Shown piece after piece: positions 6,501 through 55,000 of a stretch of DNA of 64,000 bases. The stretch spans positions 45,300,594 through 45,364,593 of the forward strand of contig NC_073307.1 of the NCBI RefSeq assembly GCF_027595985.1, written 5' to 3'. The position numbers were made by a program, and so were the translations under genes. Position 1 is the first letter of the stretch. The number at the start of each line of letters is the position of its first letter. The notes below the pieces were generated by a model, which was not told where the DNA came from, searched no databases, and saw only the letters and a list, made by a program, of their open reading frames with translations. The stretch comes from Sorex araneus (lineage: Eukaryota; Chordata; Mammalia; Eulipotyphla; Soricidae).

Positions 6501-9330
6501 GGTTCCATTGAACAACCCCATGCTAGAATTTAGTAGCAGAGAGACAGTGCATGATGAATTTTCTTCTCTAATTCCACAATCTAATACTTTGAGCATAATG
6601 AAAAGAACAGAATTTCATCACATTGCTAAGTGATTTTAGCAAATTATTTAGGCTTTCTTATTAAAACCAGGCTTCAATTTCTTCATGTATACATAGGCTT
6701 GGTATATTTACCTCATGCACTCTTCGTAAATGCCTTGCACAATGCTTGACACAATATTTTATATTATTAGGAAAAAATAGAAGCACAGGTTTTATAAAAT
6801 TAGAGCTCATATATACTAAGGAAGAAAAAATATTGAGACTTATTTTTGGAAACATTTGATGCTTGTTTCTTTCATGATAGGCTCATGTTATTGATGCTTT
6901 AGTTGTGGCTTTAGAGTGATAAGATGTAAGAATTTTAAGATAACTAGCTTATATTTATTTTTTGAGATTTACATATTGTGTAGAAATTCAAGATTGTACT
7001 TACTTATTTTCAAGACATAACTGGCATTCATTAGGATAAGTAGTATCATCAGTCCCGCAGACTGGGTTATAGATCTTGGTACATCCTCTAACTTCACTAC
7101 CACATTTAGCCTAAAAATGAAATTAAACAGAATTATGAAAGGAAAAAGAGTCCTCTGATTTTAAAACTCAACGAAATTTCTCTTTTTTTTAATACAGGAA
7201 AGAGAAAATCCAGGACATATAGAACTTTTCTAGTTTATTAATTTCTTTTCTTTCTTTGTTTTCTTTGTTTTTTTTCCCCCTTGAGATTGGGAGAACTCTG
7301 CCAAGCTGGCTAACCTTGCAGTTATGAAAAGTCTACTTTGAGTGAAATTGAAAAGGCTGGAAACTTGTCCTGCCAGGTAGACTCATTCTACATAAAAACG
7401 CTTTCACAGTATTATATAGCTACTAGAAAATACCTGCAAGTCTCTGAATTTTCCTTCAAAGGAAGTGCTTGTGGGACAATGGCTATCACTATTCACATTT
7501 AATGGTTTAAGTCTTGCTAGCATTCATATTCTTTATTTTGACTTTAGGCTAAACTGAAAGACAAAATACTGCACACTGGTTGGAGTAAACTGTTCCAGTA
7601 TGAGAGATAAGAAATTATAAAATTATCTTTACCTCTCTTCCCAGGGAGTCAGCACCTGTATTACCTACAAAACATAAATCAGAAAATATTAAAATTGGGT
7701 CCTGAGTAGTTTGGGGATGACACTTGGCCATACTCGGGCCTCACTCCTTTTTTTTCCCTTTCTGGGTCACACCTGGCGATGCACAGGGGTTACTCCTGGC
7801 TCTGCACTCAGGAATTACTCCTGGCGGTGCTGGGGGACCATATGGGATGCTGAGAATCGAACCCGGGTTGGCTGTGTGCAAGGCAAAGGCCCTACCCACT
7901 GTGCTATCGCTCTAGCCCCTCAGGCCTTACTCCTGACTCTGCACTCTTACTTACTCTTAGTGGGAACTGGAGGACTCTGTGGGTTGAACCTGGGTAGTTC
8001 ACACCCAAGGCAAGCACCATACCTGCTGTACTATCACTCCAGTCTCTCCAGATTTACTCTTAATAGGTTGAATTCACCTTCTTGAATTTACAAATAATTT
8101 ACTTTGAATTGTAATACTGCATTTTCCAGAATAGAAGGTTTTGTTGATATTATGTATCGGATAGAAATTATGAAAGAACTAATTGAGGGAAAGGAAATAA
8201 TCTGACAGCAGCCAAAGGATAAAATATTCACCAGGTTTAATTTTGATATTAATAAGCTCTGAGGTGATGTAGGTAGGAGGCAGTTTTCCTCGGATAAATG
8301 TGATAATTAATGAGATGAGAGAATTCTTGAAGCAGTCAAAAATGATGCCAATGGGGTTATCCTAGATTTGGGAATTTAATTGAATTTAAAATCGATGAGG
8401 TATCTTAGCCATTCATGTGTTTAATCATAAAGCCTGGGAAGGGGAGAAAGGGATCACTTCTCCCATAAACATTTAACAAATATAAGATAGGACACTATAG
8501 CCCTTAGCAAAAGGCTGACTTGGCTCTTAGTAGTACTTTGTTAGATCTAATAGGAATATGGAATGCCTGTTTCTAATGATCCAAAGAAAGTTGACTCCAA
8601 TAATGTGGTTTTAAAAAGGTAGAAAGTTTGTGTATATACTCATCACATCTTTTTCAAGTCAAATATTTTCTGCTTAAATATATGGCAGGTCAAAATAACA
8701 ATCTTTTAATCAGTATTGCTTTACCTTTTATACTGAACAACTGGAAGCCATTGTTAAACATTATACAAATTTCCCTCATCAATGTCCTGCTTCTGACTAG
8801 AGGAAAACTAGTAGTTCTCACTCCCAGGATTATTTTCCCTTGTGCTTTGTTAGAATGATAGTAACAGAGATATTACTATAATTCTCACCCATTGATTTTA
8901 TTTCAGGTTATTGGGACAAGAAGAGCTGTTCGAGACTAGACTCAACTTGACAGTGCTGTGCTCAGTAAAGCAATGGATTAAAAAGTGTTTTACTGGGCAG
9001 CAGGGATCTAGCTCAAGAGCGTGAAGTGCCAAGTTTAATCTCAGTACGTAAGCATGGCTCCTGGCATGGTTCCTGTGGCCCTCGTGGCCCCCAACACCAC
9101 TGGGTTCACGCAACATCACTAACCAAACCATTAAACTCCTGCAGGTTGTCCAAGAATCTCTGAAAGTGGTCCCCTTCTGCTGAGCATTATTTGGGAATCC
9201 ACTCCCCCTCACTATAAATTTTGCTTATATCAGAATATATTTTGCTTATATCAGAAAATATGTAAAGATACTTACCAGACAAACATAAAATGACCAAGGC
9301 ACTCAAAAGGAAGATGCTTGTTACCTTCAT
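3559..9330 (-). CDS. SPINK1: SPINK1, pancreatic secretory trypsin inhibitor (Kazal type), four coding exons
   Basis: Coding exons on the complement are 9330-9276 (55 nt), 7664-7633 (32 nt), 7110-7004 (107 nt) and 3604-3559 (46 nt, TGA at 3561-3559). They total 240 nt, giving 79 aa, the human length. All introns have GT-AG ends (donors gtaag, gtaaag, gtaag). Residues 1-23 are a signal peptide ([19 protein letters not shown]...). The mature chain starts at Asp24 ([16 protein letters not shown]) and carries one Kazal domain with six cysteines at 32, 39, 47, 58, 61 and 79. The reactive bond is Lys41-Ile42 (CTKIYNPVC), as in trypsin-inhibiting SPINK1, and the C-terminus is KKSGPC. The family protein is made by pancreatic acinar cells and blocks prematurely active trypsin. 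Residue 34 is Ser where human has Asn. Introns hold old SINEs and an L1 fragment, but no exon is hit. SPINK1 was preferred over other SPINK genes on signal peptide, length and C-terminus. Confidence 0.97.
4075..4590 (-). repeat. L1 3' end fragment in SPINK1 intron 3
   Basis: On the plus strand it reads tcaccGTGA..cagttacaaactt, cccatccctccaccagtgcc and C-rich blocks, then CACTCTGTAATTTTATATTCC. This is the complement of the L1 3' UTR and the extreme end of ORF2. Confidence 0.8.
6280..6460 (-). repeat. A-tailed SOR SINE in SPINK1 intron 3
   Basis: GTCCTGGCTCTGCACTCAGG to GTACTATCTCTCTGGC. Moderately diverged. Confidence 0.8.
7697..8047 (-). repeat. nested SOR SINEs in SPINK1 intron 1
   Basis: A young copy (7749-7918) interrupts an older copy (7697-7748 plus 7919-8047). 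Direct repeats ctcgggcctcactcct (7733-7748) and ctcaggccttactcct (7919-7934) are the target site inside the older SINE. The older head ends TACTATCACTCCAGTC. Confidence 0.9.
9000..9165 (+). repeat. possible old tRNA-SINE in SPINK1 intron 1
   Basis: agggatCTAGCTCAAGAGCG, then GTTTAATCTCAGTACG and GGCCCCCAACACC, resembles a decayed A/B-box SINE about 110 bp from exon 1. Confidence 0.4.
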
Positions 9331-10956: not shown

Positions 10957-11130
10957 TTTTTTTTTTTGGCTGTTTGGGTCACACCCAGCAATGCTTACGT
11001 CTGACTCCTGGTTCTGCACTCAGGAATCACTCCTGGCGGTGCTCAGGGGATCATATGTCATGCTGGGAATCGAATCTGGGTTGGCTGCATGCAAGGCAAA
11101 CGCCCTACCCGTTGTGCTATCGCTCCAGCC
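10957..11130 (-). repeat. A-tailed SOR SINE
   Basis: Target repeats ccaaaccactaaa (10944-10956) and ccaagccactaaa (11131-11143), one mismatch. Confidence 0.92.
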
Positions 11131-11227
11131 CCAAGCCACTAAAATTCTTGGTACATCAGTCTTCTGCGTGAAAACTCTGGGGCACCCTAGGGAGGGGAGG
11201 TCTTTTTTTTTGTAGGGAAAAAAAAAG

Positions 11228-11436
11228 GACTGGATAGCACAGCTGGCAGGGTGTTTGCCTTGTATGTGGTGACCCGGGTTCGATTCCTCCGTCCCTCTTA
11301 GAGTGCCCGTCAAACTACCCATGGGGTATTCGATAGGCCAAAAACAGTAATAACAAGTCTCACAATGGAGATGCAACTGGTGCCTGCTGGAGCAAATCGA
11401 TGAACAACAGGATGACAGTGCTACTACAGTGCTATG
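11228..11436 (+). repeat. SOR-long SINE
   Basis: A-box-like gatagcacagctggcaggg and B-box GGTTCGATTCC at about 11278, then body, then RTE-like tail GGAGATGCAACTGG..GATGACAGTGCTACTACAGTGCT. Flanking gtaggg/gtagg plus A runs (11213 and 11437) form the target repeat. Confidence 0.88.
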
Positions 11437-14079: not shown

Positions 14080-15155
14080 TTGTTATCAAAGCTCTAGCCA
14101 AACAGGGTGTTCAAACTCAGTACATCAAGATCCTTCTCGAACTGTATTACAGATTCATCACCAGGATCCCACCATTCTACAAGGAAGTGATCATTGATGT
14201 AAAGAGAGGGGTTTGGTAGGGTGATATCATTTCACTGAAACTCTTCAGTACCACCCTCGAGAACGTCAAGCGACAATTGGAATGGGAAGGAATGGAGTGA
14301 AGATAGATGGTCGGCAACTACACCACCTCTGCTTCTCATAACACCAAACATTAGCCAAGTGGCACAAATACTGGCCGACTTCGACCATGAGTGTGGAAAG
14401 GTTGGACTGCAGCTGAATCTCAGCAAAACAATGTTTATGCAAAATGAACTAGTCCCTGATGTTCCATTTGCTCTCAATGGAACGAACATTTCCAAATGCC
14501 GCAGCTATATGTACCTGGGTCGAGAACTCAACATGAGGAATGATTTGGCACCACAACTACGCAGGAGGAAGAGAGCAGCATAGAGCACCTTCAAGAGTGT
14601 CAAAGAAGTGGTTAAGAGGATGAAGAACCTCTGGCTCCAGGCACATCTTTTTGACTCCACCATTCCTCTTGCACTAACATACACCTCAGAGACCTAGGCC
14701 CTATGAAAACAGGATGAGAATGCTAGTATTTGTGTATCCCAAAGAGGAATCGAAAGCTATGCTAGGAGTATCATGTTTCACATAAGTGAGAGAAGGAATC
14801 CGGAGTTCCGACTTCCATCGATGGTCAAGAATCAGGGACGCTGTCTCCTTTGCCAAGTCGTAAAAAATCAGATGGGCTAGACATGTAATGTGATTCAGAG
14901 ATGATCGCTGGACTAGAGCTGTTATTGACTGGATTCCACAGGACGTCAAAAGACTACGTGGCCACCCACCTGCAAGAAAGAAGGTCAGACTTCTTTGTCA
15001 AAACCCTGAATGAATGGTTTGAGGCTCTTTCTGTTACTGGAGTGAGCAGATATCATTGGGGTACACTAGCACGCAACAGGGATGAATAGAGATGTTACTG
15101 ACACCTGCTTGAGCAAATCGAAGATCAATGGGATGACAAGTGATACAAGTGATGC
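14080..15155 (+). pseudogene. RTE-clade LINE fragment: decayed reverse transcriptase C-terminal half and 3' end
   Basis: Three-frame reading gives RTE-type reverse transcriptase motifs broken by stops and frameshifts: YIKILLELYYRFITRIP near 14130, VGLQLNLSKTMFM at about 14400-14440, LNGTNISKCRSYMYLGREL near 14470-14530, DWIPQDVKRLRG near 14925 and HWGTLARNRDE ending 15086. The catalytic F/YADD box is missing: CFS near 14332 runs straight into ITPNIS with the intervening bases deleted, so the copy is dead. The endonuclease half is absent (5' truncation). The last 65 bp (15083-15150) match the 3' tails of SOR-long and SOR-L and end in a GTGATACA-like repeat rather than poly(A). The RTE assignment rests on my recognition of the motifs. 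Confidence 0.8.
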
Positions 15156-15344
15156 TTATGATGGCAATATACAACATTTCCATGCTATTCACTAATGTTT
15201 GCCGACTTTATAAAGAGATATATTGCTCTGATGGAGAAAAGAATTCTACTCTGACTTACCTATCAGATGGCTTTGATCTCACTAAAATAGGTCTTTAGCT
15301 GAACCATTAAGATTTTAACAGAGTTGAAACATGATTCTCCTAAG

Positions 15345-15985: not shown

Positions 15986-16098
15986 AAAACACTTTCCACT
16001 ATGGCTACTTAGAGGATGAAAATTCCTTATATTGTATACTTTGAAGATGAAACAATTTCTTAGCAGTTTAGTAAAGTAAAAAAAAATTAAGTTTTCTC

Positions 16099-17997
16099 AC
16101 TATAAAACGCTACTCCATGAAATAAAAGAGGACATGAGGAAATGGAAACATATTCCCTGCTCATGGATAGGGAGAATCAACACTGTCAAAATGGCAATAC
16201 TCCCCAAAGAATTATACAGATTCAACACGATCCCTATAAAGATACCCATGGCATACTTCAAAGAAATGGATCAAGCAATCTTGAAATTCATATGAAACAA
16301 TAAATGTCCATGGATAGCTAAAACAATTCTGGGGAAAAAGATGATGGGCAGCATCACCCTCCCCAACCTTAAACTTTACGACAAAGTGGTAACAATTAAA
16401 ACAGCATAGTACTGGAACAAAGGCAGAGCCACTGACCAATGGAACAGATGGAATATCCCAACACACAACCCCAAATGTATGATCATCTAATCTTTGACAA
16501 GGGGGCAAGAAATGTGAAGTGGAGCAAGGAAAGCTTGTTCAACAAATGGTGCTGGCATAACTGGAAAACCACATGCAAAAGAATGGGCTCAGACCTCAAC
16601 CTGACACCATGCACAAAAATCAGACCAAAATGGATTAAAGACCTCAACATCAGACCATAATCCATAAGGTATATCGAATACAAGGTCAACAAAACCCTTC
16701 ACGATATTGAAGCTTAAGGTATCTTCAAAGATGACACGAAACTAAGCATAAACTGAGAAGTTTCTGCACTGCAAAAGACACAGGGATCAGAATACAAAGG
16801 CAATCTACAGAGTGGGAAAGGATATTCACCCATTACCCATCCGATAAAGGATTGATATCAAGGGTATACAAAGCACTCGTTGAACTCTACAAGAAGAAAA
16901 CATCCAACCCCATCAGAAAATGGACCAAAGAAATGAACAGAAACTTTTCCAAGAAAGAAATACAAATGGCTAAAAGGTACATGAAAAAATGCTCTGCGTT
17001 ACTAATCATCAGAGAGATGCAGATCAAAACAACCATGAGATACCATCTCACACCACAGAGAATGGCACACATCCAAAAGAACAAAAGCAACCGCTGTTGG
17101 AGAGGATGTGGAGAGAAAGGGACCCTTCTACACTGCTGGTGGGAATGCCGACTGGTCCAGCCCCTTTGGAAAACAATATGAATACTACTCAAAAAATTAG
17201 AAATTGAGCTTCCATCTCATCCAGCAATACCACTTCTGGGAATATATCCCTGAGAGGCAAAAAAGTATAGTCGAAATGACATCTGCACTCAAATGTTCAT
17301 TGCAGCACTGTTTACAATAGCCAGAATCTGGAAAAACCCAAGTGCCCTAGAACAGATGATTGGTTAAAGAAACTTTGGTAATCTATACAATGGAATACTA
17401 TGCAGCTGTTAGAAAAAATGAAGTCATAAACTTTGCATATAAGTGGATCAACATGGAAAGTATCATGCTAAGTGAAACATGAGCCAGAGAGAGAGGGACA
17501 TAGAAAGATTGCACTCATCTGTGGAATATAAAATGGCAGAGTAGGAAACTAATACCCGAGAATAGTAGTATATAATACCAGGAGGTTGGCTCCATGGCTT
17601 GGAACTTAGCCTCACACGCTGGGGGAAAGTCATCCCAGATAGAGAAGGAAGCACCAAGTAAAATGTGATTGGAAATCCCGAGCGGGGAGGGAGATGCACG
17701 CTGCAAGTGGACTAGAGACTGAACATGATGGCCACTCAATATCCCTATTGCAAACCACAACCCAAAAGAAGAGAGAGAGAACAGATTGGAATGCTCTGCC
17801 ACAGGCGAGCGGGGTGGGGGGGATGCGATAGGGGGGTGGGAGAGATACTGGGTTCATAAGTGGTGGAGAATTGACACTGGTGGAGGGATGGGCTCTGGAA
17901 CATTGCATGAGGGAAAAACAAGCACGAAAATGTGTGAATCTGTAACTGTACCGTCACTGTGATTCATCAATTTAAAAATAAATAAATTTTTTTAAAA
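16099..17997 (+). pseudogene. 5'-truncated L1 with ORF2 C-terminal remnants and 3' UTR
   Basis: The element is flanked by a 13 bp target-site duplication, attaagttttctc at 16086-16098 and attgagttttctc at 17998-18010 (one mismatch). ORF2 is split across frames. 16852-17181 reads [18 protein letters not shown] and then [20 protein letters not shown], the zinc-knuckle-like C-terminal segment. Upstream, 16439-16660 carries ANWNR-like late RT residues. Stops and frameshifts are scattered throughout. The 3' UTR is G-rich and ends in an AATAAATAAA tail before 17997. The whole copy lies in the SPINK1-SCGB3A2 intergenic space. Confidence 0.92.
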
Positions 17998-19736: not shown

Positions 19737-19925
19737 AGTGGAATGATAGCGCAGCAGGTAGGGCGTTTGTCTTGCTCAAGGTGGACCCGGGTTCGATTCC
19801 TCTGCCCCTCTCAGGGAGCCTGGTAAGCTACCAAGACTATCTTGCCCGCATGGCAGAATCTGGCAAGCTACCCATGGCATATCCAATATGCCAAAGAACA
19901 GTAACAAGTCTCACGATGGAGACAA
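19737..19925 (+). repeat. SOR-long SINE, 3'-truncated
   Basis: tRNA-like head with GGGTTCGATTCC at about 19789 and body CCAAAGAACAGTAACAAG. It stops at GGAGACAAGA, before most of the RTE-like tail, where an L1 ORF2 piece begins. Confidence 0.85.
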
Positions 19926-24000: not shown

Positions 24001-24337
24001 TATTTGGGTTTGTCTAGTGTTTTTCTCATGGTTAGATTTTCTCGTGGTCAGAGCTGTGAATTGGGGGGGGATGAACATTATAATTATACTTCTCACTATA
24101 CATCACAGGCAATGCCATTGATGACAAGATAACCTCGTTCAGGTGATGCTTTGTCAGATTCCTTAACTGCAATGTCACATTTTACCCCTTTCTCTATCAC
24201 TTGTAGAGAAGTCAGGAGGTGTACCTCCATGAAGGAGAAAGGGAGTTAAGTGTCGTCCTTCTGAGGGTAAGTGTTTGCATAGTCTTAATTCCTCTATAAA
24301 GAGGAGTTTTGTAATCTTATTTATTCACAAGTATAAT

Positions 24338-24877
24338 CCCGAATCATGAAATCCCATTAATCATCGATTTCTCAAGCGGGCTCAGTAACCTCTCCATTCG
24401 TCCTTACCCTGAGATCTTAGAAGTCTATCTCGACTCTGCCCTCCCAATGAAGTCAAACGGGAGGCTCTTTCAGGGTCAGGGGAATGAGATCCAGCTTGTT
24501 ACTAGATTTAGCATATGAATATACCATGGGAAGCTTGCAAGGCTGTCCCATGTGGGCAGGAAACTCTCAGAAGCTTGCCAGTTTCTCCCAGAGGGAAAGG
24601 TAGGCTACAAGATATCTAGCACAAAGGGGCCGCGCACTTCTGGGAGCTCACTTTGAAGTCTCTGGATGTTGGCCGTTGATGGGATTACACACACCTGGGT
24701 TCCTCTGCCGGTACCTTCATGCGTGAGGCCTGTCCGAACGTGTGGAGAGGGGCCTCGAGCATGGCTGTAGCTAGGTTCTGGTGGTCTTCGGCCAGCAGGA
24801 GCTCTGCTTGGGGTGGAGAGGGAAGCTGGAGCCCATCCCCTCAGAGGGACCCCAGGGAAGACAGCCAGGCCTTCGGG
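24338..24877 (-). repeat. SOR-L copy A (short subtype)
   Basis: Target-site duplication caagtataat at 24328-24337 and 24878-24887. Read on minus, it has a CpG-rich head (complement of CAGGCCTTCGGG), a body shared with SOR-long and an RTE-like tail (complement of ccattaatcatcgatttctc). It lacks the roughly 125 bp internal block of copies B and C, as does copy D. Confidence 0.85.
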
Positions 24878-24887
24878 CAAGTATAAT

Positions 24888-29861: not shown

Positions 29862-30112
29862 AGCAGCACTGTCAGCACTGTCGTCCCGTTGCTCATCGAT
29901 TTGCTCGAGCAGGCACCAGTAACGTCTCAATTATGAGATTTGTTACTGTTTTGGCTATATCGAATACCCCATTGGTAGCTTGCCAGGCTCTGTCGTGGGG
30001 GGCGGTATACTCTCAGTAGCTTGCTGAGCTCTCTGAGAGGGATGGAGGAATTGAACTTGGGTCAGCTGCGTGCAAGGCAAACGCCTACCTGCTGTGCTAT
30101 CACTCAATTTAC
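29862..30112 (-). repeat. SOR-long SINE
   Basis: On the plus strand the tail complement comes first (cactgTCAGCACTGTCGTCCC, CATCGATTTGCTCGAGCAGG) and the tRNA-like head last (GTGCTATCACTCA). Confidence 0.85.
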
Positions 30113-30124
30113 ATGATTCATGAT

Positions 30125-30450
30125 AGAGGTAATAATGGTTTTTAGTTTACACAATTCTGACATCACAACCACCACCAGGGTAGTCTCTTCCTGTACCCTA
30201 ACACGTCTTTTTTGTACCCCTCTCCAACTCAATTGTATGAATCAGTTCTCCCGTTGTGTAGTTTTGGGATCTTGTGCTATTTTGCTGTGTATATTTAAAT
30301 CCCACCGAAATATGAGAGGGATCATTCTTTTTTTATTCCTTTGTTTCTGACTTACTTCAGTTAGCATAACATATGCATAATACCACAACTTCTTGGTTCA
30401 TCCTGGGAGTTTGTATATCAATTTCCTTTATTTATTTCTTTTTTTTGGTA
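30125..30450 (-). repeat. old L1 3' fragment
   Basis: The antisense L1 words TTTCTGACTTACTTCAGTTAG and CATAACATATGCATAATACC are preceded by a diverged 3' UTR. It lies between SOR-long (29862-30112) and SOR-L copy B. Confidence 0.5.
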
Positions 30451-30469
30451 GCAGCCTGACATTTCTCAC

Positions 30470-31143
30470 TGTATCACTGTATCACTGTCATCCCGTTGAT
30501 CATTGATTTCCTCTAGTGGGCTCCAGTAACGTCTCCATTCATCCTAGCCTGAGATTTAGCAGCCTCTCTTTACTCATTCTTCCCAGTGGTTCTGCATTGG
30601 AGGCTCTTTCAGGGCAAGGGGAATGGGACCCATCATTGTTACTGTATTTGGCATATCAAATACACCACGGAGAGCTTGCCAGCCTCTGTTGTGTGGGCAG
30701 GATGCTCTTGGTACCTGGCCAGGTTCTCCAAGAGGGAGAGCTAGGTGATAAGAGGATGCAAGGCTGCATGTACTTCCAGCAGTATTGTTTTATAATATTT
30801 GGATCTTGGCCGTTGATAGGATTACACGGCTACCAGGGGCAGCTTGTGGGTGTGGCTGTCAAGCTACTGGAAAATGGGGGATCTGGGTGGAGGAGGCCCA
30901 GTCCTGATCTGAGCAGGCTTGGAGATCTCAGCCACGGGTCCCACACACCTGGGTTCCTCTGCCGGTTCTTTCATGTGTGAGGCTTCTCCATACATCTGGA
31001 GAGTGGCCTTGAACATGGCTGTGGCGGAGTTCTGGAGGTCTTCAGCTGCTGGGGCTCTGCTTGGGCAGGTAGGGAAACTCAACCCACCTCCCTTTATGGG
31101 GCCCCAGTGAAGACAGCCAGGCTTGGGGGCAAAGTTTCTGCTT
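30470..31143 (-). repeat. SOR-L copy B (long subtype)
   Basis: Target-site duplication acatttctcac at 30459-30469 and 31144-31154. The tail shows repeated gtatcact units (30467-30488) before CCCGTTGATCATTGATTTCC. It includes the internal block (about 30825-30945) missing from A and D. A 154-codon plus-strand frame across it is fortuitous. Confidence 0.88.
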
Positions 31144-31489
31144 ACATTTCTCACCCATAGATTTTAAGTGTAAAAAAGCCAACCAACCAACCAAACAAAC
31201 AAACAACCAAATAATCTTTCTGTTAACCTCATCTGATGTCTGATGTTAACCTCATCAGACAAGGCAAGATTGGAGTTTAAGCCAGAGGAAACGATGAGAT
31301 TAGAGATATAAAACCACGTGAAGAAATGCAAACCAGGTCCATAGAAGTGCTCAGTGGATTGATTGGGTGCATATATGACTTTCTGACATTACTCTGAACA
31401 AAACCCTTTAAATCTCATACTTTTCAAACGTGCTATGTTTGATATTGTGTGCTTATATTATTATGTTATTATTGTGGTTCATGTTACAT

Positions 31490-35680: not shown

Positions 35681-35916
35681 TATCCCTCTACCAAGAGTAT
35701 CCCGCCCATATGGAAGAGCCTGGCAAGCTCCCTGTGACATATACGATATGCCAATACAGTAACAATAACAGGTCTCATTCCCCTGACCCTGAAAAGAACC
35801 TCCAATTGCTGGGAATAGCGAGTAAGGAGAGGCTGCTAAAATCTCAGGGCTGGGATGACTGGAGACGTTACTGGTGCCTGCTCGAGTAAATTGATGAACA
35901 ACAGGATGACATTGAC

Positions 35917-37148: not shown

Positions 37149-37191
37149 TGGACTTTAGATTGATTACAGGATGTAGCTTAAAGCTGCTATA

Positions 37192-37849
37192 TCATCATAA
37201 TCATCATCATCCGGTTGAATGTCAAATTTCTCGAGCAGTCTCAGTAACGCCTCCATTCATCCTAGCCCCTGAGATTTTAGAAGCCTCTCTTTACTCATCC
37301 TTCCCAATGGTGCTGCATCAGAGGTTCTTTCAGGGTCAGGGGAAGGAGACCCATCATTGTTATTGGTTTTGGCATATGAATGGGGAGTTTGCAAGGCTCT
37401 CCCATGTGGGCAGGAAACTCTTAGTAGCTTACCAGGTTCTCCTAGTAAGAGAACTAGGGAGAACTAGGCTATAAGATGTCCGGGAGCTTGGTATTATAAT
37501 CTCTGGATGTTGGCAATTGGTGGGATTATATGGCGCCAGGGGCAGTCCCTGGGTGTGACCGCCCAGCTACTGGAAATGGGGAATCTGGGCTGAAGAGGCC
37601 CAGTCACAATCGAAGCAGGCTTGGAGAGGTCTCAGCCCTGGGTCCCACACACCTGGGTTCCTCTGCCAGTTGCTTCATGGTTGAGGCTCATTTGAACATG
37701 TGGAGAGGGGCCTTGAGCATGGCTCTGGCTAGGCTCTGGAGGTCTTCAGCCCCGGGAACTCTGCTTGGGGTATGGAGGGAAACTGAAGCCCACCCGCTTT
37801 GAGGGGTCCTGGGGAAGATAGCCAGGCATGGGGGCAAGAGACTCTCTGC
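37192..37849 (-). repeat. SOR-L copy C (long subtype)
   Basis: A perfect target-site duplication, aaagctgctata, occurs at 37180-37191 and 37850-37861. The tail at 37192 is a catcat repeat. The internal block is present (about 37530-37650). Confidence 0.9.
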
Positions 37850-37889
37850 AAAGCTGCTATACATCCTTTAAAATTTAAAGTACTATGAT

Positions 37890-43606: not shown

Positions 43607-43618
43607 AATTTTGCTACA

Positions 43619-43861
43619 TGGCTAGAGTTCATAGCACAGTGGGTAGGGCGTTTGCCTTGCTTGCAGCCGACCCGGATTCAATTCCTCCACCCCTCTCGGA
43701 GAGCCTAGCAAGCTGCCGAGAGTATCTAACCCGCACGGCAGAGCCTGGCAAGCTACCCGTGGCGTATTCCATATGGCAAAAACAGTAACAAGTCTCACAA
43801 TGGAGACGTTACTGGTGCCCGCTTGAGCAAATCGATGAGCAATTGGATGACAGTGATACAG
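43619..43861 (+). repeat. SOR-long SINE
   Basis: A perfect 12 bp target-site duplication, aattttgctaca, occurs at 43607-43618 and 43862-43873. Head, body and RTE-like tail GGAGACGTTACTGG..GGATGACAGTGATACAG are complete. Confidence 0.93.
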
Positions 43862-44279
43862 AATTTTGCTACAAATAAAGAATGGCAACAATATAAGAAA
43901 AGATGAGATGGTGGTTTTAAATTGTCTTATTGTTATTTTGGCCTATTTTTTTTTGGTGTGGTTTTCCTGAAAAGGGGTTTGGTAGTATAAGAAAAGTATG
44001 CTTAGGGTGAGCTAGTTGGAACAACTTCAGTTGCCAGTGAATTTTGAAATATTAGGGATCCTCTCCAATTACCTAGTTTTTGGGTAACTATGTCAGAAAG
44101 ACAGTGGCTAAAAGTATAAGACCTCTGTAAAGGAAGTGGTTGCCACCTGTACTTCAATGTAGTGGTCTGCATAAAGTGCTCTCGGAAGAATTTGCTATCT
44201 CCAGGAATCAGTTGGTCTTTGTAGGACGGGTTCTCCTGGGTCAGGAAGGTCCAAGATGTCAAAGCATCAAAGTAAATAT

Positions 44280-44931: not shown

Positions 44932-45466
44932 GAGAGTCTCTTGCCCGCACGCCTGGCTGTCTTCCCCAGGGCCCCTCGGAGGGGATGGGCTCCACCTTCC
45001 CTCCCCACCCCGAGCAGAGCTCCCGGCGGCCTAAGACCACTGGAACGTAGCTACAGCCATGCTGGAGGCCCCTCTTCACACATTCGGACAGGCCTCTTGC
45101 ATGAAGGTACCGGCAGAGGAACCCAGGTGTGTGTAATCCCATCAACGGCCAACATCCAGAGAGAGACTTAAAAGCAAGCTCTCAGAAGCGATATCTTTAG
45201 CCTACTTCTCCCTCTGGGAGAAACTGGCAAGCTTCTGAGAGTTTTCTGCCCACATGGGACAGCCTTGCAAACTTCCCATGGTGTATTCATATGCAAAATC
45301 CAGTAACAAGCTGGATCTCATTTCCCTGACCCTGAAGAGCCCCCAATGCAACATGGTTAGGAGGGCCGAGTCGAGATAGACTTCTAAGATCTCAGGGAAA
45401 GGACGAAATGAGATGTTACTGAGCCCACCCGAGAAATCGGTGATTAACGGGATTACGTGATACGTG
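44932..45466 (+). repeat. SOR-L copy D (short subtype)
   Basis: Target-site duplication atttatgtgtgca at 44919-44931 and 45467-45479. The head starts GCCCGCACGCCTGGCTGTC. The body contains CATGGTGTATTCATATGC and CCAGTAACAAG. The tail is GATGTTACTGAGCCC, then GATTACGTGATACGTG. It is an inverted relative of copy A, with the same internal deletion. Confidence 0.9.
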
Positions 45467-45618
45467 ATTTATGTGTGCACATGGATTTATTGCAGTTCAC
45501 ATACCTGTAAGTATATAAATATGTATTTGTTTTTGTATGTTTTGTGTGAAGTAGGCTCTGGCTTCCTTCACACAACACATATAATGACCCTGGAGAAAGA
45601 AATAAAAGACATGGGCCT

Positions 45619-45796
45619 CGGGGGCCGGAGCGATAGCACAGCGGGTAGGGCGTTTGCCTTGCACGCGGCCGACCCGGGTTCGATCCTCAGCATCCCATAT
45701 GGTCCTCCAAGCACCGCCAGGAGTAATTCCTGAGTGCAAAGCCAGGAGTAACCCCTGAGCATCGCTGAGTGTGACCCAAAAAGCAAAAAAAAAAAA
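45619..45796 (+). repeat. A-tailed SOR SINE, near-consensus
   Basis: A perfect 14 bp target-site duplication, aaagacatgggcct, occurs at 45605-45618 and 45797-45810. CpGs are retained throughout the head (GGGCCGGAGCGATAGCACAG), suggesting a recent insertion. Confidence 0.96.
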
Positions 45797-50230: not shown

Positions 50231-50465
50231 CACTGTCACTGTCACTGTCATTCTGTTGCTCATCGATTTGCTTGAGCGGGCACCAGTAATATCTTCATTG
50301 TGAGACTTGTTGTTACTGTTTTTGGCATATCGAATACGCCACGGGTAGCTTGCCAGCCTCTGGCGTGCAGGTGAAGTACTCTGGGTAGCTTGCTGGGTTC
50401 TCCGAGAGGGGCGGAGGAATTGAACCTGGGTCGGCCGCATGCAGGGCAAACGCCCCACCTTCTGG
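50231..50465 (-). repeat. SOR-long SINE
   Basis: Target-site duplication gctctttcagt at 50220-50230 and 50466-50476. The tail consists of repeated cactgt units (50231-50250), followed by CATCGATTTGCTTGAGCGGG. Confidence 0.93.
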
Positions 50466-50769
50466 GCTCTTTCAGTATTTTGTAAAAATGTCATAATGGA
50501 TCAAGGGAGGATGGTATCAACTCTCTACCTTTGTACTACACAAACTTGGCCCTATAAAGATTTTTGGCACATTAATGTTTCTGCTCTGGGACAGTACCTT
50601 GAAGAAACAGAAACAATTTCTGACAGATAAAACAATAGAAGTGGCAAAATTGAGTATACAAGGCAGTAATATGTATTCTTCTTAAACTAGTTGATGAAGT
50701 AGCAGGAAAATAATAAAATGGCAATTGCTAACCATGAACTCACAAAAATAAGTACTACATGACACAGAA

Positions 50770-52000: not shown

Positions 52001-55000
52001 ATGAAGCTGGTAACTGTGTTCGGGCTGGTAATGCTCAGCATTTGCACATACTCTGGTAAGTAGTTGGAATATATGGTTTTGCTACTTTTCTACTAGAAGG
52101 AATCTTACTAAGAAGCCAAAGTTCTCAGGGGACTATGGTAGAGGGAGTTTTAGAGCTGGTGAGCAGTAAAGTCAGAAGGAATTTGAGAGGCCCTCCCAAA
52201 CCAAATTCCAAGTGGTGAACCCATATAAATACCTCTGTTCATTCTACATAAGAAGTTGACCAACTCCCACTGGGGTGAACAAAGCACATTTTGTGGTTGA
52301 ATATCTGTGATTATAGTTTTATTGGTTTATTTTAAAATCTAAGTTGAAATTTTTGAATTTCTTTTACAAAAAAGTTTTAAAACGTTAGAATTTAAAAATT
52401 TTATGACTTTGAAACTATATGGAGTCCTTCCTGATTTGATTTCTAGTCAGGCATGTTTCTAAATTGATTCCCAATTTAAGATATAGTTACACTTAACTTT
52501 TCACTCACACTGGAGCGATAGCACAGCAGGTGGGGCATTTGTCTTGCATGCGGCCGGCCAACCCAGTTTAATTGGGAGAACCCAGCAAGCTACCGAGATT
52601 ATCCCACCTGCACGGCAGAGCCTGGCAAGCTACCTGTGGTATATTTGATATGTCAAAACCAATAACAACAAGTCTCACAATGGAGACGTTACTGGTGCCC
52701 ACTCGAGCAAATAGATGAACAATGGAATGACAGTGCTACAGTGCTGCCTTTTCACTCAATAGGTATTTATTAAATGGCTATAATATGCTGGGTGCTGAAA
52801 AGCAGAAGATGACTCTGGCTTGAATTAGTCATTACTAATTGTTTTCATGGTATGTATGTCAGAGGTAATGTGAATTCTATAGAAACCCTTATAATGCTAG
52901 ATTATTATAATGTATAATTTCATTTGAAAAAAAGAGAACTCTGTGAGGGTACAAAGAGGAAAACAGTTGAATTTCCAAGTGGAATATAGAACCTGGCTTA
53001 GTGGAACAGAAATGGGTATATTGTTTTGGGAAGGAGTCACTCTAACTATATGGAAATTATATTTGAATACATATTTAAAATGCATAATTCTGGCCACTAC
53101 TCATTCAGAGAAAGTTTTGAGAGTTTTGAATTGTACACCCAGAGCAGGCACTAACCATTTACAAAGTCAGGATATAAATAATGAGAACAAAGTGCTGCAA
53201 TGGAACTTTGGCTTGTTAACTTTTGTTGAACTTTTGAGCAAATTTGTGGCTTTATAAGTTTTGCTGCTTTTGTTATCTAGTATAATATTGATGTATAGAG
53301 GAGGCAGCAGAAGGGTGGGTAGAGAGAAAAACATATTTCCCTATTCAGAGAATTTTGTAAGGAAAACTGATAGTAGAAGATGAACGAAAGGTAGATATAT
53401 AGACTCTCTTTATTCTATGAATTGAGGAATAAAAAGATTCCAATGGAAAATAAACTCTGTACTCAGGGTTTTATTCAGCAGAACAATGTATGTAGTTATG
53501 TGTGTGCTTGTGTGCTTATACCTATATACATATATATGTACATCTATATACACAATAGATTTATATATACTATTGAGATTGAGAATAGGCTTCATAAAAA
53601 TATGCCAGAGTGGTACTTTAATTATTTAAAATTAAATTTTCTTAAGAGAGGGTCAGTGTAAGAGGAACACTCTAACCTTTCTCCATCCTGAGAGCAAGGA
53701 GCAAATCTCTCCTGTGAGAGTATTATGCTGTGACTGGAAGCTGAGAGATTTCCTTATTGGCAGAGATGGGGAATTAAGGGCTGAGAAAACTATGCTAACC
53801 AGACTGGATTTACTTGCTTGCTACAAAAACTTCACAAGTTTACTGTCTCTTTAGTTGTGTATAGACTAACTGCTTTGTTTATTTTGCAAGAATAATGTTC
53901 ATGGGGTCTCTGTGCACTCAAATTTCCTGTCACTTTCTCTGTTTATCTGTCTTGTATCAACTTAATTAACCATTAAAAACCAAGAGGCGTCTGGCTCTTT
54001 CCAGACAATAGGCAAACTGTGCCTTGTATAAAATATATATTACATGTATTTTGCTCATTCTCTACTCCTTTTCTCTGACTCACTATATATATAAAATTTC
54101 TCCTTCTAAATCCAGAAATATGGAATACAGTTGTTTTATATAAAAGCCTTACTAACACTTCAATGATCTCAGAAAAAAAAAAGACTAATTAGTATGGCAC
54201 TCAAAGCTTTGAAAACTCTTACCTCACTTGAATTTTGCAGCCTTTCTCTTCTTTTCCCTCTTTGCATGTCCAGGAATTCTTTTATTTTTTGGGGGGTCAC
54301 ACTTGGCAATGCACAGGGGTTACTCCTGGATCATGCATTCAGGAATCACTCCTGGCGGTGCTTGGGGGACTATGGGATGCTGGGAATCAAACCTGGGTCA
54401 GTAGTGTGCAAGGCAAATGCCCTACCCGCTGTGCTATAGCTTCAGCCCCATGTTCTGAAATTCTTTGCTGCAAAATATCTGTGAAAAAGGTTTCACCATC
54501 CGGCATATGTACTAACATCTTAGTGCTTTTGTTAAAAATATTTCTTCTTTTAAAAAATAGAGCTCATTTTTTGGACCTGATGATCCTGATGTTTATTTGA
54601 GATATAGCTCTAGAAAACTTCTACTAGGAAGATTCCTGCAACATTCTTTCACCCAATGGTTAGTCTTCCCTTCTTTTGTGTTCCCATTACATTTTATCCA
54701 TAATATTTGCACTGCACGTGCCTCTCTGTGACATGCACATATACCCACTTTGTTTTCTAGACTCTGTGAGTCATCTGAATTGAGAATCCTGTCCTTATTC
54801 ATCTAGAATAGGTGCTCCAAATTGGTATAAAGTCAGTGCTCAATTATGTTTGTCAAACTGAGTTGAATTGGTTAAGGACAGTTTTCTGAACCAGTAGGAT
54901 CACTCATGTCTTGAAGTAGAGGTTCAGTGTAGTATCACCTCATTTAGCTTCAAAATCATATTTTTGTGAACCAGCTACATGTCATATACATCCATTATAA

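Follow-up and report, generated by a model that had tools for sequence, protein, structure and literature searches.

Two families of retroposons of the shrew Sorex araneus, SOR-long and SOR-L, are very probably (at a probability of about 0.86) non-autonomous retroposons of a resident RTE-type LINE, and the A-tailed SOR family, which has the same tRNA-like head as SOR-long, would have been mobilised by L1. This reading was reached from a 64,000-nucleotide stretch of the genome (the window) and from searches of the genome (2.406 Gb in 65 contigs). According to the mechanism proposed here, the RTE element would have lost its interior, a segment of its 5'UTR becoming directly joined to its 3' end, and two promoters would have been attached at almost one RTE position (~122 in the longer RTE copy L019). 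Fused to this RTE remnant, the tRNA-like head of SOR, severed immediately past box B, would have given SOR-long, and a GC-rich head would have given SOR-L in the same manner. Transcription of the SINEs, presumably by Pol III and Pol II, would yield RNAs that terminate in the RTE 3' end and a tandem tail and that the reverse transcriptase of the RTE could thereby recognise; target-primed reverse transcription would insert these RNAs with duplications of ~8-22 bp. A-tailed SOR combines the same head with an A tail and with a 3' half whose similarity to RTE is not convincing. The initial annotation of the window had proposed that RTE mobilised both SOR-long and SOR-L, and the shared 3' end, the shared 5'UTR, the occurrence of RTE copies with a SINE-type end and the insertion-site signatures, all of them features of sequence, speak for such mobilisation in trans.

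The RTE copy of the window (positions 14086-15153, forward strand) is 5'-truncated and decayed, and its alignment to the longer copies L016 and L019 identifies it as the 3' ~1.07 kb of an element of ~3.2 kb. Sister copies have Pfam matches to RVT_1 (4.5e-15) and Exo_endo_phos (3.1e-10), and the anatomy of the RTE clade is present, namely an apurinic-type endonuclease and a reverse transcriptase in one short element, followed by a non-A tandem tail. We take the element to be an RTE on the grounds of this anatomy. The stretch shared with SOR-L (from ~15080) and SOR-long (from ~15085) occupies positions 15080-15135 and corresponds to C-terminal codons, and the tail that follows it (15136-15153) is made of two ACAAGTGAT units. 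In fact, in one copy, L012 (4666-5547), a frame of 294 codons runs through the shared stretch (..RDEWRHYWHPLKQIEDQRDDK) to a stop that lies within the tail repeat, so that codons and tail overlap in this one copy; this leaves RTE practically without a 3'UTR. What the SINEs share at their 3' end is thus the last part of the RTE reading frame and not a 3'UTR. Close to the window RTE, L1 ORF2-like sequence was recognised by eye near 16060-16500, and in L014 (oriented, ~1064-1900) a tandem array creates long repetitive open frames near the RTE copy. No relatives of the RTE were found in viral contigs, and 23 stretches in prokaryote genome contigs fit a pattern, none of which encodes an RTE relative.

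Ten other places of the window match the 3' end of the window RTE, over a stretch that starts at 15079-15085 and ends at 15136-15160, with 74-84% identity (E 1e-12 to 3e-6). The homology starts at 15085 in five SOR-long places and at 15079-15080 in five SOR-L places, in agreement with the earlier statement that SOR-L shares a few bases more. All 5 SOR-L copies of the window and 5 of its 6 SOR-long copies carry this end; as a correction to the earlier statement on SOR-long, the copy at 19739-19923 lacks it. Compared with the RTE 3' consensus, the 3' module scores 52 for the SOR-long consensus and 59 for that of SOR-L; with the single copy L019, the scores are 32 and 34, and the best of 100 shuffles there reached 18.5 and 15.8. 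Within RTE, this end is native. Among the best 40 candidates of the genome search that were scored, 37 (window copy included) are collinear with the query to its position 1064 or beyond, and the other three end at 1048, 1042 and 933. When the 3' ends of 40 RTE copies are aligned, they stop abruptly and are followed by (ACAAGTGAT)n in most copies and then by unrelated flanks, L117 being non-homologous there and the similarity of L099 and L115 fading before the tail. Since the tail is reached collinearly in 37 of the 40 scored copies, the tail of the window RTE is not an inserted SINE, and the insertion of a SOR-long into this LINE, which the initial annotation had named as a possible objection, is ruled out; a duplication search found no target-site duplication around the window RTE. 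An RNA fold was also considered as a signal common to the three 3' ends and was rejected, with z values of -1.52, 0.10 and 0.17 giving no clear excess over shuffles.

A second RTE-matching segment exists in SOR-long and SOR-L. It corresponds to the RTE 5'UTR, as seen in the longer copies L016 and L019, and is missing from the 5'-truncated window RTE. The SOR-long body matches L019 122-228 with a score of 79.0 and the SOR-L body L019 123-311 with one of 109.5, where the best of 100 shuffles reached 16.7 and 21.9, respectively. Compared with L019, the SOR-L head (13.0; best shuffle, 17.1) and the SOR head (8.0; best shuffle, 15.0) have no RTE similarity above shuffles, and the 3' half of A-tailed SOR (16.6) ties with its best shuffle (16.5). 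In all 40 genome copies scored, L019 among them, the 5'UTR of L019 runs directly into the ORF start. Taken with this native contiguity, the 5'UTR matches define the anatomy of both families: SOR-long consists of a tRNA-like head, ~107 bp of RTE 5'UTR, the RTE 3' end and a tail, and SOR-L of an unrelated GC-rich head of ~400 bases, ~190 bp of RTE 5'UTR, the RTE 3' end and a tail. The RTE interior is missing from both, the 5'UTR segment being joined directly to the 3' end. Between SOR-long and A-tailed SOR, the consensus heads agree at all but 2 of 66 positions, and the two families diverge immediately past box B. ARAGORN finds a tRNA-Ala in three A-tailed SOR heads of the window and in none of its SOR-long copies; the SOR-long head is of the small-RNA type and bears a predicted promoter. 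The idea that one promoter module has used two machineries thus fits A-tailed SOR and SOR-long and does not extend to SOR-L: the tRNA head formerly attributed to this family is absent, and the head that it has is unrelated to that of SOR.

This anatomy can be followed in individual copies of the window. For example, the SOR-long at 43620-43861 (forward strand) is composed of the head (43620-43684), the RTE 5'UTR (43685-43798), the RTE 3' end (43799-43850) and the tail (43851-43861), and is flanked by a 12-bp target-site duplication, AATTTTGCTACA (43607-43618 and 43862-43873). Another forward copy, at 52510-52743, has its head at 52510-52572, the 5'UTR segment at 52573-52678 and the 3' end at 52679-52730, followed by the tail, within an 11-bp duplication, CTTTTCACTCA (52497-52507 and 52748-52758). 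Both RTE segments are also present in the SOR-long copies at 50236-50468 and 29867-30105 (reverse strand) and in that at 11233-11434 (forward strand), which has an internal deletion; the copy at 19739-19923 (forward strand) is the one lacking the RTE 3' end and the tail. Among the SOR-L copies, that at 30472-31141 (reverse strand) has its head at 30752-31141, the 5'UTR at 30545-30743, the 3' end at 30488-30544 and the tail at 30472-30487, with an 11-bp duplication (30459-30469 and 31144-31154), and that at 37200-37845 (reverse strand) lies within a 12-bp duplication (37180-37191 and 37850-37861). The remaining ones are found at 24336-24881 (reverse strand), 44933-45468 (forward strand) and 35689-35915 (forward strand), the last aligning only from within the RTE-derived part. 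Long AT/GT simple repeats lie 5' of this last copy and after its tail. A-tailed SOR, the comparison family with the same head and an A-rich tail, is exemplified by the copy at 45621-45792 (forward strand), and we take it to be the published SOR SINE.

The SOR-L head is a lead of its own. It has 64% G+C, compared with 39% for the window, and neither Rfam, run on one SOR-L copy (30400-31250; no match at E 1 or below), nor ARAGORN, run on the SOR-L coordinates of the window (no tRNA), recognised it. A TATA-like string occurs within 60 nt upstream of 10 of 34 SOR-L copies. Two of these strings, in L054 and L058 (at distances of 13 and 7), look fortuitous. The upstream stretch of the remaining eight copies is at least partly the 3' end of the head itself, and seven of them have a TATAAAA-like box 30 nt ahead of the recurrent SOR-L 5' end, the eighth having it 28 nt ahead. 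In L055 and L085 the upstream piece is shorter and the box is missing. A spacing of ~30 nt is that expected of a Pol II TATA promoter, and the SOR-L head may therefore be a promoter monomer, a candidate suggested by the position of the box. A further (partial) head unit stands upstream of some SOR-L copies, e.g., L053:1168-1484, L050, L091, L092, L095 and L015:5007, an arrangement that resembles an array of Pol II promoter monomers.

The tail unit distinguishes the window RTE from the SINEs. The initial annotation had described a common tandem tail; a non-poly(A) tandem tail is indeed present in both, but the units differ by one base, the RTE having (ACAAGTGAT)n and the SINEs (ACAGTGAT)n, i.e., a 9-base and an 8-base unit. 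Among the 40 fetched RTE copies, GACAGTGAT occurs in none and CAAGTGA in 34. When the genome was searched with exact patterns tied to RTE coding sequence, the 9-base tail gave 2,071 matches and the 8-base tail 758. In the RTE context, the SINE-like string CGATGANYAAYGGGATGACAG has 333 exact matches genome-wide, the SOR-long string CGATGAGCAAY has 51 and the 9-base-type string CGAAGATCAAY has 14, the pattern with 333 matches being looser than that with 14 owing to its N and Y positions; reversed-pattern controls gave 0 each time. Of 100 listed places with the 8-base tail, 16 recur (by eye) among the 100 listed places with CGATGANYAAYGGGATGACAG. The 758, 333 and 51 matches indicate that an RTE subfamily with a SINE-type 3' end exists, as judged from exact patterns, and this subfamily, with its (ACAGTGAT)n tail, rather than that of the window copy, is most likely the direct partner of SOR-long. 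The consensus 3' string of SOR-L (CGATGATCAAC followed by ACAG) has 0 exact matches in the RTE context genome-wide, so the exact source RTE of SOR-L was not found.

Insertion sites separate the families as well. They were compared in 324 kb of non-redundant sequence, window included, using copies complete at both ends and with enough flank (49 of 104 rows for A-tailed SOR, 40 of 59 for SOR-long, 34 of 79 for SOR-L, in which some elements are split, and 21 of 41 for RTE); most SOR-long and SOR-L copies are the best matches to a window copy, so that the sample is not random. Duplications with a score of at least 9 were found in 27/49 A-tailed SOR, 23/40 SOR-long, 12/34 SOR-L and 4/21 RTE copies, and mispaired controls gave 1-2, 0-2, 0-1 and 0-2, respectively. 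At a score of at least 8, the duplication has at least three A among its first four bases in 24 of 30 A-tailed SOR copies, against 7 of 27 SOR-long and 1 of 15 SOR-L copies (A-tailed SOR vs the other two together, Fisher p 2.8e-7). L1-like hexamers, from a set chosen by us, fit 12/30, 1/27 and 0/15 of the sites; strict TT|AAA is rare in all three families (5/30, 1/27 and 0/15), and T before the nick fails to separate A-tailed SOR from SOR-long (50% vs 59% at -1, 57% vs 44% at -2). The median duplication length is 15 for A-tailed SOR, 11 for SOR-long and 12 for SOR-L (p 1.3e-6), a difference that is partly built in because the A tail lets A-tailed SOR duplications extend over As, this adjacency inflating both their length and their A content. 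That the flank was A-rich before insertion is no such built-in effect. In the tail, a run of at least eight A occurs in 26/49 A-tailed SOR, 0/40 SOR-long and 1/34 SOR-L copies. Therefore, the sites of A-tailed SOR are L1-like and those of SOR-long and SOR-L mostly are not, and the latter two families largely lack the marks of L1-mobilised SINEs, an A tail and TT|AAAA-type sites. The former claim that A-tailed SOR relied on L1 gains support from these L1-like sites and from the A tail, which suggest that L1 inserted it. Two of four RTE duplications start A-rich (at least three A in four), which does not yet match the SINE signature, four being too few to define a site preference of RTE itself.

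The activity periods of the four families overlap. At non-CpG-like sites, the median divergence is 0.042 for RTE (21 copies, picked because they resemble the window copy), 0.035 for 35 chosen and 0.062 for 12 incidental SOR-long copies, 0.061 for 34 chosen and 0.091 for 19 incidental SOR-L copies, and 0.088 for 88 incidental A-tailed SOR copies. Genome-wide junction patterns with up to two mismatches, which miss more diverged copies, gave 139,772 matches for SOR-long and 18,956 for SOR-L (controls, 0).

This age and abundance of SOR-long and SOR-L, with SOR-long at well over 100,000 junction matches, is what could favour a reversed borrowing, in which RTE would have captured its 3' tail (or its 5'UTR) from an earlier SOR-type SINE. 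We regard such a capture as highly improbable and reject it, because in all 40 scored copies the ORF follows on the 5'UTR segment and the 3' stretch is in frame as the RTE C-terminus, with its stop in the tail repeat (in one copy), an arrangement that a captured SINE tail would hardly give; RTE sequence upstream of position 122, besides, is not aligned by the SINE bodies. The borrowed sequence could otherwise be a passive filler, SOR-long and SOR-L being mobilised by L1 like A-tailed SOR. L1 seems to be present, to judge by the ORF2-like sequence next to the window RTE, the head is common to A-tailed SOR, and the A-rich starts of 7 of the 27 SOR-long duplications point the same way; however, the non-A tails, the mostly non-L1 sites and the shorter duplications of SOR-long and SOR-L leave this option with a very slim chance.

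Mobilisation by RTE, the reading that we prefer, has itself a variant, rather than an alternative, which we place only slightly below even odds. SOR-L would have come first, through a single internal deletion, and SOR-long would have arisen when the SOR head replaced that of SOR-L with partial loss of the 5'UTR. Bodies that begin at RTE 122 in SOR-long and 123 in SOR-L are in line with this order, as are the 3' variants common to both families (GTGCCCGC, GATGA and the 8-base tail) vs the 9-base RTE consensus. On the other hand, the 5'UTR of SOR-long is slightly nearer to RTE (22/126 differences, edge columns included) than to that of SOR-L (27/126), and RTE copies carry the SOR-long 3' string, which makes an independent derivation of the two families equally possible.

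Bipartite RTE-SINE architecture is already known from birds and hagfish. The AviRTE SINEs of birds (ManaSINE1, GymnSINE, BuceSINE, ManaSINE2 and MeloSINE) are described as having a bipartite RTE tail and tRNA, 5S, GC-rich or 28S heads, and their RTE as shared horizontally with nematodes (Suh et al., 2016; PMC4844689). Like them, SOR-long and SOR-L join a promoter head to part of the RTE 5'UTR and to the RTE 3' end, and tRNA-type and GC-rich heads occur on one RTE; unlike them, they involve another RTE and another host, and have an A-tailed sister with the same tRNA-type head and L1-like sites, a counterpart of which is not seen for AviRTE SINEs in the available text of that paper. In hagfish, SINE1-1_EBu and SINE2-9/10_EBu are bipartite RTE SINEs, and bipartite non-autonomous elements are called common for RTE-type LINEs (Kojima, 2020; PMC7245038). 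As described there, they are also RTE derivatives formed by internal deletion and acquisition of a head, but with 7SL or tRNA/UCON3 heads and other RTE families. At their 3' ends, which are the part compared, SOR-long and SOR-L resemble the SINEs linked to BovB in having an RTE-clade end. BovB, with its Bov-tA and Sauria SINEs, is a familiar case of SINEs ending in the 3' end of an RTE-clade element. BovB-mobilised SINEs are also cited in PMC4844689. The SOR SINE of shrews is listed as a T- SINE (PMC11240701), and a Soricidae SINE primer printed in PMC8608897 lies in the A-tailed SOR consensus; compared with the SOR SINE, SOR-long has its 3' half swapped for RTE sequence. For S. araneus, RTE1_Sar has been reported as abundant and as shared horizontally with strongylid (parasitic) nematodes (Dunemann and Wasmuth, 2019; PMC6542046), in a paper in whose main text the words SINE, UTR and tail are absent. 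The window RTE is probably RTE1_Sar, with which it has in common the RTE type and the abundance in a shrew. No paper on RTE-tailed shrew SINEs was found among the literature matches listed, and Repbase or SINEBase may catalogue the families.

The wider interest of these families lies in one tRNA-like head apparently served by two machineries in one genome, and in the recurrent two-ended RTE tail. Since the same head is joined to two 3' halves with two site signatures, the choice of machinery seems to depend on the 3' half and not on the promoter. A broader scenario, which we hold tentatively and with the odds leaning against it, is that a LINE acquired from a parasitic nematode was exploited at least twice in a shrew lineage, once by the L1-dependent SOR head of the host, which switched machinery when its 3' half was swapped immediately past box B, and once by SOR-L, a non-autonomous RTE under the control of a promoter monomer of the Pol II TATA type; the repeated retention of a 5'UTR segment in birds, in hagfish and here would then imply that two RNA signals, one per end, are required by RTE reverse transcriptases. 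The recurrent fusion of 5'UTR and 3' end makes this two-signal model of RTE RNA recognition testable. If RTE1_Sar is indeed the window RTE, well over 100,000 SINE insertions of a placental mammal would go back to a LINE acquired horizontally. As for A-tailed SOR, it yields 21 alignment rows in the 64 kb (e.g., 7749-7919, 10961-11132 and 45621-45792), which would amount to several hundred thousand per genome if the window is typical.
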